Origin: Bacteroidales bacterium
GTDB taxonomy: Bacteria; Bacteroidota; Bacteroidia; Bacteroidales; M50B96
Reading direction: 5' to 3'
NCBI GenBank assembly: GCA_018401015.1
Contig: JAGYLP010000006.1
Span: 1-64,000 of the forward strand
DNA: 64,000 nt
Below the pieces are notes generated by a model. The model was not told the DNA's origin. It saw only the letters and a list, made by a program, of their open reading frames with translations, and did not search any database. Shown here piece after piece: positions 15,032-18,566 of this stretch (position 1 is its first letter; each line of letters starts with the position of its first letter). The translations under genes were made by a program, and so were the position numbers.

Positions 15032-15595
15032 CTAAAACCAAATGCAACCATAATCTTTTTTCTTTAACATGAAATTTATTTCATCCTTGTTAAAATATTC
15101 AGGGTCAAATTCACCCCCCAACCATTCAATATAACTAGCATATTCTTCATGTCCGGGTTGTTTAAGTATTTCAAGCATATCTGAATAACCCCATATTCCG
15201 CCACAATCTTCAGGTGGACAATTCCGCCTACCTGCTATACATTTTGGTGTTTGTATCTGATTATCTGGAGGTAATATTTTTTCAAGGGTTATCGTATGTT
15301 CCCAACCATCACCAAAATCATATTCATAATTAATCTTTGATCTTTCCCTATCTAATAATTTATTCAATCTTATCGTTCTTGAATCACTTGTAAAGTCGAC
15401 TTCAAATTCCTTTGGTGAATAATCGTCAATACCATCTGAAAACACATGTAGATGTGAATTTGTCCAGCCCATTGTTGTTTGTATAATGCAATGAAAATCC
15501 ACTAACAAGATATCCGAATCTACCAGTATTCTTCTCCATATTCTAGGTTTGGATCCCTTTAAAACTATTTGAATTTGATATACCTTTTTAGCCAT
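15032..15595 (-). CDS. plasmid pRiA4b ORF-3 family protein
   Basis: YQIQIVLKGSKPRIWRRILVDSD; NYEYDFGDGWEHTITLE; CIAGRRNCPPEDCGGIWGY; likely start MAKKVYQ. Confidence 0.88.
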   Translation of the reverse strand: MAKKVYQIQIVLKGSKPRIWRRILVDSDILLVDFHCIIQTTMGWTNSHLHVFSDGIDDYSPKEFEVDFTSDSRTIRLNKLLDRERSKINYEYDFGDGWEHTITLEKILPPDNQIQTPKCIAGRRNCPPEDCGGIWGYSDMLEILKQPGHEEYASYIEWLGGEFDPEYFNKDEINFMLKKKDYGCIWF

Positions 15596-15916
15596 GTTTT
15601 TTCCTTCAAATGTAGTTAAATTGTCCATTCGTGGGTTGTTTTAATTGCTTACAACTAACACATATCGCGAACTTTGGATTACTTTTTCCAACACAGCGCC
15701 AATCCTCCTATCGACAGAATTAACCTTGCTTAGCTTCCTTAACTATCCATTTGAACGGGAGGACGACATACTCGAAATTTTTGCTGACTCTAAAATAGTA
15801 ACCTGGGAAAATAGGAAAGTCGGATTTGGTGAAAACTGAAGAGTCGAAGGAATCTTTCATGGTTAAACATGAGCAATTGTTGTTGCGAATACCTTAGTGG
15901 TAATTTTGGGGAGGGA

Positions 15917-16867
15917 CTACAGGACAATAGCAAATTGCCCGACGCGCTGTGTTATTAATTCCTTGTAGGCTTTTTGTTTGTCTGAATCAAGGAAAGAGCT
16001 GTCGATCAGCGCTATGGCCTCTGGAAACCATTTCGTCAGCCTTTTGTAAACCGCGGTGATTTGTTTGTCATTTAGTTGTAATACAGCCCCTAGACGATCG
16101 AAATACGTTTTGTTGAAGTTTTCCTTTTTACCACCCAGAAGCAAGGCTGTGTCGTCCTTATCATTTGGAAAGATCATTTTCACATTCAACAAGTCGTAGA
16201 AAGGAGAAAGCACCCAACCCATTTCTGATAAAAACATCGAATAGTTTTTTAAGTGCATATCGTTGTTCCCGATGATATAGTTGAATACCGTTGTTTCAAA
16301 AAAACGCAACTTGTCAAACAGGGTGTTAACGGATAAATCGCCTATGGTTTTTCCGAGTGTTTCCATAGTGCCTTTGTATTTATCAGCCAGTTCAAGTATT
16401 TGCAGAAAATCGATCATGTGATTTTTAGATCCATCCGGGTTACGATCAATGCGTTTGGTAATAAAGCACAGTTCACCCGATTGTAAGCGAATCATATTTA
16501 CAGGTACAATGTCTATTTTGAACAATTCGGCCAGTTTCATAGAGAGGTGTTCATTTTCAGGCATCTGCGGATAATCGGCATTTTGCGGTTTGAGGATATA
16601 GTTCCCTTCTAAAGCATCCATGATGGTCAGACGCCCCTGATGGCCATTTTCCAATGCAGATTTTATCCACCCCAACGACAGTTTGGGCTGAACCCCCGGA
16701 ACGGTAATAGATAGCTCTGCGGCTTCTTTCGCCAGTTTTTCCATCTCTGATAAACGATAGGGTAATAAGGGAGCATGTTTGGTCCCAAAAAAAGCTTTAC
16801 TGCAATTAGGATGATAGTCCGCTTGCTTATCATCCAACTCCTTATAACAATAGAGGCATTTATGCAT
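15917..16867 (-). CDS. HipT-like kinase (HipA core and C-terminal domain) with N-terminal CxxC-x11-HxxC putative zinc knuckle
   Basis: SITVPGVQPKLSLGW loop; YILKPQNADYPQMPENEH; catalytic NNDMHLKN; LSPFYDLLNV; N-terminal CLYCYKELDDKQADYHPNC. Confidence 0.88.
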   Translation of the reverse strand: MHKCLYCYKELDDKQADYHPNCSKAFFGTKHAPLLPYRLSEMEKLAKEAAELSITVPGVQPKLSLGWIKSALENGHQGRLTIMDALEGNYILKPQNADYPQMPENEHLSMKLAELFKIDIVPVNMIRLQSGELCFITKRIDRNPDGSKNHMIDFLQILELADKYKGTMETLGKTIGDLSVNTLFDKLRFFETTVFNYIIGNNDMHLKNYSMFLSEMGWVLSPFYDLLNVKMIFPNDKDDTALLLGGKKENFNKTYFDRLGAVLQLNDKQITAVYKRLTKWFPEAIALIDSSFLDSDKQKAYKELITQRVGQFAIVL

Positions 16868-17204
16868 TGGTTCCAGGATTTACCGGGTGAACACTTACCG
16901 CACCAATGGCATTTTGACAACAGGCCAGCAGCAGACCCATGCGGTCATTCTTGTTAATCTTCCAGCTTTCAGCGGCTATATTCAATAGCCAACCTTCAGG
17001 AATGAGTCCATCGAAAAACGGGAACAATCGCTTACTTCGGTATGGACTTGTTGATACTGGCATTTGAAAGGAGATGAATTGGTTTGGGTAGGTTTGGGCG
17101 TACATTTCATCATATACAAAGAGATATTCTCCATTATCCTCTTCAGTTAGAAGACCAGCCTGAATGTTATTGTATTTAACTATTCCTTGTCGCATGGCTC
17201 TCAT
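16860..17204 (-). CDS. HipS-like protein (HipA N-terminal subdomain 1)
   Basis: 114 aa; LFPFFDGLIPEGWLLNIAAESWKINKNDRMGLLLACCQNAIGAVSV is the HipA N1 signature; overlaps the HipT-like start by 8 bp. Confidence 0.88.
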   Translation of the reverse strand: MRAMRQGIVKYNNIQAGLLTEEDNGEYLFVYDEMYAQTYPNQFISFQMPVSTSPYRSKRLFPFFDGLIPEGWLLNIAAESWKINKNDRMGLLLACCQNAIGAVSVHPVNPGTNA

Positions 17205-17391
17205 TCAATGGACCTAAAACATGACCAAACATGTGTAGCACCTGATTGACCTTTGACAGGCTGAGGTTTTCTTTGCCTTGTTCAATCTTTCGAATAACCG
17301 TAAGCGCAACCCCAGCCTTTTCAGCAAATTCCTCCTGGGTTAGGCCTAATTGCTTTCTTTTCGTTTTTACAAAGTCTGATAATTCACTCAT
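17176..17391 (-). CDS. HipB-like XRE-family helix-turn-helix antitoxin/regulator
   Basis: MSELSDFVKTKRKQLGLTQEEFAEKAGVALTVIRKIEQGKENLSLSKVNQVLHMFG; ATG at 17391 (the listed ORF extends to a TTG). Confidence 0.88.
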   Translation of the reverse strand: MSELSDFVKTKRKQLGLTQEEFAEKAGVALTVIRKIEQGKENLSLSKVNQVLHMFGHVLGPLNESHATRNS

Positions 17392-17393
17392 AT

Positions 17394-17491
17394 TATATGT
17401 ATTTACATACAAAAATAGCAAAATCGCCGATACTATATGCAATTACGTATAAAAAAGATTCGACCCCCACTTTTATATGCAATTGGATATA
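17394..17491. promoter_or_regulatory. Three near-palindromic putative HipB operators with 40-bp periodicity
   Basis: TATATGTATTTACATACA (17394), TATATGCAATTACGTATA (17434), TATATGCAATTGGATATA (17474); half-site symmetry 7/9, 7/9 and 8/9. Confidence 0.75.
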
Positions 17492-17936
17492 ATTTTCAAA
17501 ATCGATATAAAATTTCCCTCGGCTATGAAACTCTCATTCCAGGCAGTTTTAAAATCTGCAAGCGCTTCTTTTTCAATGGGCATGTTGTCTTTAATGGTCT
17601 TCTCTACTTACAGCGGAATATTCAGGTTGAAGTCGTTTCCCTTCCGATTCTTCAGACAACCGGTTTATTGGTGAACTTTTAATTGATAATAGTGGTGAAC
17701 TTTCAATGGTAATCTACACATTTCATTACCTATTGATGTCGTTTTAAATCCTGTTCAAATTTGCAAATCAAATAGCTCAAATTGTTTGCTGACTGTTATT
17801 TTAACATGGCTGATAGCGGTCACGTTGATGAAACGTTTGGCATTTCGAAGCACTTTCCAATTAAGTCACACCTATTTTTGACACGACCTGAAATATTTAC
17901 TAAACCACTGATTGGCTGGAAGGGTAATTGGTTGGT

Positions 17937-18351: not shown

Positions 18352-18494
18352 CTTTAGTTGGGAAAAACCTATCTGCCTCGTGCTCAGTTCTAATTACTCT
18401 ATACTGCCATGTGAGTTTTGAGTTTTGAGTAGGAACACTGGTCGGAAAAGAGCTTGCAACCTCTTGCTCATTACTCTTGCTCCAAACCGCTTGG

Positions 18495-18566
18495 TGATCT
18501 CGGCGGGAATCGAACCCACATCGTCGGAACCGGAATCCGATATTCTATCCATTGAACTACGAGACC
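18495..18566 (-). tRNA. tRNA-Arg (anticodon CCG)
   Basis: Reverse complement GGTCTCGTAGTTCAATGGATAGAATATCGGATTCCGGTTCCGACGATGTGGGTTCGATTCCCGCCGAGATCA folds as a cloverleaf; anticodon loop TTCCGGT. Confidence 0.92.

Follow-up and report, generated by a model that had tools for sequence, protein, structure and literature searches.

Positions 15917-17391 of the window, by which we mean the whole stretch of 64,000 nucleotides analysed, very probably hold a chromosomal toxin-antitoxin module, a HipBST of the Legionella-type lineage. A sequence-only reading had proposed three overlapping minus-strand genes of HipBST-like identity at this locus, and all three open reading frames are intact:

17176..17391, minus strand: hipB, XRE/Cro HTH repressor, 71 aa (TIGR03070 couple_hipB 77.2 bits, HTH_3 44.8 bits)
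16860..17195, minus strand: hipS, stand-alone HipA N-subdomain 1, predicted antitoxin, 111 aa (Couple_hipA 84.2 bits, TIGR03071 90.7 bits, HipS(Lp) E 3e-15)
15917..16867, minus strand: hipT, HipA-like Ser/Thr kinase without N-subdomain 1, predicted toxin, 316 aa (HipA_C 142.3 bits, HipT(Lp) E 8e-38)

In the HMM search, the curated cut-offs are exceeded by hipB (TIGR03070 couple_hipB of NCBIfam, 71.65 bits), by hipS (Couple_hipA, 22.5 bits, and TIGR03071, 27.8 bits) and by hipT (HipA_C, 30.5 bits). The HipBST-like identity also agrees with the order of the genes, the predicted fold and the relatives of solved structure.

The extent of hipS differs somewhat from the initial description, which gave a stand-alone N1 subdomain of 114 aa and a hipB/hipS overlap of about 20-29 bp. 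The stand-alone N1 subdomain is retained here, but a length of 111 aa is more likely. An upstream ATG at 17204 yields the 114 aa form, and a second ATG follows at 17195. The Met of the second is invariant in 73/73 aligned HipS and the first Met is variable, so that 17195 is most likely the start, which places the hipB/hipS overlap at 20 bp, the lower end of the range. The overlap of hipS and hipT comprises 8 bp, as claimed, and reads ATGCATAA.

Relatives of the module were fetched as 80 loci from a one-genome-per-species collection. Nearly all of those with sufficient flank display the gene order hipB-hipS-hipT. The hipS/hipT overlap measures 8 bp (59 loci), 11 bp (10 loci) or 14 bp (3 loci), i.e. 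in 72 of the 76 loci with an assigned hipS. The same three-gene layout is present on annotated plasmids of Runella (conjugative), Bacteroides, Flammeovirga, Parabacteroides, Arcobacter and Legionella. Because order and overlaps recur in relatives, finished genomes included, and on plasmids, the split is real, and a frameshift assembly error joining hipS and hipT is ruled out.

HipT-like matches (E <= 1e-20) occur in 79 of 396 sampled Bacteroidota genomes. A phage-borne origin was rejected, as the phage collection contained one weak match only (23% identity). On the Aliivibrio plasmid pCG103-32 (L111, 416-2523), two HipT-like kinases stand in tandem behind a single hipB-hipS pair; the canonical catalytic-loop pattern did not match the second kinase. 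The window's genome contains a second HipA-like kinase of the full-length type, truncated by the end of contig C20 (L179, 2-1150).

Legionella-type HipBST was reported in 2023 across the FCB superphylum including Bacteroidota (PMC10653801), and the presence of HipBST in a Bacteroidota genome is an already known kind of system. The comparison drawn initially was with E. coli HipBST; the family is correct, but the Legionella type is nearer. HipT scores 133.7 bits against HipT(Lp) (E 8e-38, about 31% identity) and 68.2 bits against E. coli HipT (E 6.5e-18), and HipA is still more distant. The AlphaFold model of HipT, built from a 33-sequence alignment, has a mean pLDDT of 80.5 and a pTM of 0.84, with the Gly-rich loop (residues 55-76) as its low-confidence part. 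Foldseek ranks HipT(Lp) (7vkc, TM 0.81) first, followed by E. coli HipT. The Legionella pneumophila module (lpg2368-2370) shares the gene order and the split hipA and provides the nearest solved HipS and HipT; it differs in the HipS motif (EGI vs EGW) and in the HipT loop (SVQ vs TVP). E. coli O127:H6 HipBST shares the tripartite split, the HipS Glu/Trp wedge, the N-terminal mini-domain of HipT and the catalytic residues, and has SIS in the loop instead of TVP. HipBA (E. coli K-12, Shewanella) has in common the kinase fold, an HTH partner and an autoregulated operon; in contrast, its HipA is one polypeptide, HipB is the antitoxin, and the target of E. coli HipA is GltX. Phylogenetically, the window HipT forms a group with the proteins from Dyadobacter (Cytophagales) and from two Bacteroidales MAGs (support 100/99). 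It is 86% identical to the Dyadobacter HipT, while TrpS of the window's genome reaches 78.6% identity even against its counterpart in a same-family genome, which suggests horizontal transfer within the phylum.

HipT and HipS contain the following elements:

16802..16858, minus strand: putative zinc knuckle of HipT, C4-x2-C7-x11-H19-x2-C22 (motif conservation and model)
16676..16711, minus strand: Gly-rich loop of HipT, S53-I-T-V-P-G-V-Q-P-K-L-S64, T[IV][TP] type (alignment; loop groups from PMC10627512)
16244..16270, minus strand: catalytic motif GNNDMHLKN of HipT, residues 200-208 (alignment)
16184..16207, minus strand: Mg-binding motif SPFYDLLN of HipT, residues 221-228 (alignment)
16989..16997, minus strand: Glu-Gly-Trp wedge of HipS, E70-G71-W72 by the numbering of the 114-aa form (corresponding to Glu63/Trp65 of E. 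coli HipS)

Both kinase motifs named beforehand, NNDMHLKN and SPFYDLLN, were thus found. Substitutions of K64, K86, H212, N215 and D233 abolished the toxicity of E. coli HipT (PMC9325769); the equivalents of these five residues are K62, K93, H205, N208 and D225, none of which varies in the alignment of 33 rows. Judged by these residues, the kinase should be active. The position of the autophosphorylated Ser is occupied by Thr in the window HipT and by Ala in 17 of 77 relatives, and the regulatory step of autophosphorylation therefore may not apply. The SxS double phosphosite of the E. coli-type loop is absent, with T55-V-P57 in its place.

In the N-terminal mini-domain of HipT, C4, C7, H19 and C22 are invariant throughout the first set of relatives (77/77). 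The motif C-x2-C-x(9-16)-[HC]-x2-C is present in 113/113 HipT sequences, a sample biased toward query-like sequences, weaker matches often aligning only from about residue 30. The mini-domain is modelled with a pLDDT of about 90 and a helix at residues 20-27 (AlphaFold), a layout which is that of a putative zinc knuckle. HipT of Arcobacter has a C-x2-C...C-x2-C N-terminus, i.e. a His-to-Cys swap, which is typical of zinc ligands; this sequence, from Arcobacter cloacae plasmid pACLO (L110, 1486-2481), stems from outside Bacteroidota. The first Cys alone is kept in HipT of Legionella, Aliivibrio, and the Flammeovirga and Parabacteroides plasmids, in contrast to the full C..C..H..C of the window HipT, and the mini-domain of E. 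coli O127:H6 HipT also lacks the full set. The E. coli mini-domain was described earlier, its significance being given as unknown. No report of zinc in HipT was found in the open-access literature.

Upstream of hipB, the following predicted operators and promoter box are located:

17394..17411, minus strand: predicted operator O1, TGTATGTAAATACATATA
17434..17451, minus strand: predicted operator O2, TATACGTAATTGCATATA
17474..17491, minus strand: predicted operator O3, TATATCCAATTGCATATA
17410..17417, minus strand: presumed Bacteroidota-type -7 box (TAnnTTTG), TATTTTTG, overlapping O1

The three 18-bp operator-like sites resemble TATAYNYAANWRCATATA and follow each other at an exact pitch of 40 bp, about four helical turns. 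Elsewhere in the 2.88-Mb genome just two such sites occur, with one mismatch each. The upstream regions of relatives contain 195 RCATATA cores (2.6 per region, vs 0.054 expected from the surrounding sequence), with at least two cores in 69 and at least three in 50 of 75 regions. The distance is exactly 40 bp in 94 of 122 neighbouring core pairs, which makes it the modal pitch. The array is mostly missing in relatives with a HipT identity below about 45%. We take TATTTTTG to be a -7 box, assuming the Bacteroidota consensus TAnnTTTG, and a -33-like TTG at 17440-17442, within O2, is presumably placed at the -33 distance of the same consensus. The -7 box is kept in most of the relatives' upstream regions inspected. 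HipB carries an HTH according to the HMM search, and the three operator-like sites are conserved according to sequence comparison; control of the operon by HipB autorepression is likely. The operators bound by HipB in Legionella likewise number three, are 18 nt long and evenly spaced (PMC10653801). These are inverted repeats upstream of the operon, as predicted in the window, but with gaps of 53 bp rather than 22 bp; Legionella-type operators are reported missing upstream of E. coli hipBST.

According to these comparisons the module would work as follows. HipS would dock onto HipT in the manner of HipA N-subdomain 1 and place its Glu70/Trp72 wedge at the Gly-rich loop, by which ATP binding would be blocked. 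HipB would link the HipS-HipT complex to DNA and repress the operon from the three 18-bp operators, which lie at 40-bp pitch across the -33/-7 promoter. The short gene overlaps may couple translation, so that the antitoxin is made along with the toxin, and the N-terminal mini-domain of HipT is probably a zinc-stabilised knuckle.

The roles of HipB and HipS could also be distributed as they are in bipartite HipBA: HipB would be the true antitoxin, HipS a mere structural subunit, and the split no more than a genetic rearrangement. HipB exceeds the couple_hipB family cut-off and HipB neutralises in HipBA; however, in the two HipBST systems examined experimentally, those of E. coli O127 and L. pneumophila, neutralisation is due to HipS and not to HipB (PMC6581861, PMC10653801). 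The Glu/Trp wedge has been described for E. coli HipS, with Trp65 as an essential residue (PMC10627512), and its E-G-W equivalent is invariant in 73/73 HipS of relatives. We consider HipB as antitoxin highly improbable and HipS, which keeps the wedge needed by E. coli HipS, the likely antitoxin. A further question concerns the target, which might be TrpS as for E. coli HipT and two of its relatives (PMC6581861). E. coli HipT phosphorylates S197 of the TrpS motif KMSKS and, at lower confidence, S199. The only TrpS of the window's genome possesses KMGKS, where the second Ser (E. coli S199) is retained but the main acceptor S197 is Gly. Phosphorylation at S197 is therefore excluded in this genome. 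Among sampled HipT-bearing genomes the motif is mixed (9 KMSKS, 7 KMGKS), and toxicity of HipT(Lp) is rescued neither by TrpS nor by GltX (PMC10653801). TrpS is thus an unlikely target here, and a module acting on TrpS in the manner of E. coli HipT appears very improbable indeed. GltX of the window's genome retains KLSKR.

The upstream side of O3 is adjoined by a remnant of a restriction-modification (R-M) gene:

17497..17664, minus strand: hsdM remnant from the C-terminus of the type I methyltransferase, 56 codons interrupted by a stop (tblastn against the whole window, 61% identity, E 3e-13)

A same-family genome (G002; L178, 3032-12694) contains, all intact, a WYL-like regulator, hsdM, hipB-hipS-hipT, a second hsdM, hsdS and hsdR, the regulator and HsdR being named from sequence reading without HMM. 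Its second hsdM overlaps hipT by ATGA. In five further loci (L001, L003, L004, L006 and L008), hipBST is flanked by fragments of one hsdM gene or of both. In L008 (2013-4570) the locus is collapsed into the start of hsdM1 fused to the end of hsdM1, an intact hipBST, the start of hsdM2 and the end of hsdR. There is no HsdM_N match in the window's genome, and no significant match to a second hsdM remnant downstream of hipT in the window. Given the hsdM remnant and the loci of relatives, the window hipBST looks like a surviving relic of an R-M operon, and the simplest history would be that a type I R-M operon once contained the module, which persisted when the operon was lost. A fixed neighbourhood partner is rejected: when 98 neighbouring proteins were tallied by Pfam and PADLOC, no common neighbour of hipBST emerged. 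The gene hsdM is common to the closest relatives only. Directly 3' of hipT, on the same strand, the window contains a plasmid pRiA4b ORF-3-like protein (15032-15628, PF07929, 218 bits). A tRNA-Arg(CCG) on the same strand (18492-18566), about 1.1 kb upstream of hipB, is a possible island boundary. Near hipBST in L003 (480-1514), a macrodomain protein resembles the DarG antitoxin on sequence reading, which suggests a defence-gene neighbourhood.

With the R-M operon lost, the module might itself be a decaying relic, inactive or unexpressed since then. The hsdM fragment adjoins the module, and hipS is broken in two close relatives: with an in-frame stop in L001 (2660-3000) and by a disrupted frame in L006 (2640-3010), hipT being still open in both. 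Sequencing error, decay, or loss of the antitoxin beside a silent toxin are alternatives for these two loci; if HipT were strongly toxic, an open hipT beside a broken hipS would scarcely be tolerated, and this counts against the toxin-antitoxin explanation. In the window, however, the three frames and both overlaps are intact, as are the promoter box, the three operators and every catalytic residue, and a decaying module seems very unlikely. Under another reading, HipBST of this subclade evolved as a guard integral to the type I R-M operon, with growth arrest upon disabling of R-M, a target of the zinc-knuckle HipT unlike the synthetases of known Hip kinases, and the window copy as a survivor; this we regard as unlikely.

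The details that are new for a Legionella-type HipBST module are the operator pitch, the putative zinc knuckle, the absent TrpS phosphosite and the likely R-M ancestry. HipBST work in the accessible literature covers the E. coli and Legionella types only, which differ in their targets; the Bacteroidota branch is widespread. The operator array, the putative zinc knuckle and the lost TrpS phosphosite bear on the target choice of Hip kinases and on the control of split systems. The decayed R-M loci retaining hipBST are natural examples of toxin-antitoxin modules that have outlived their carrier defence operons.
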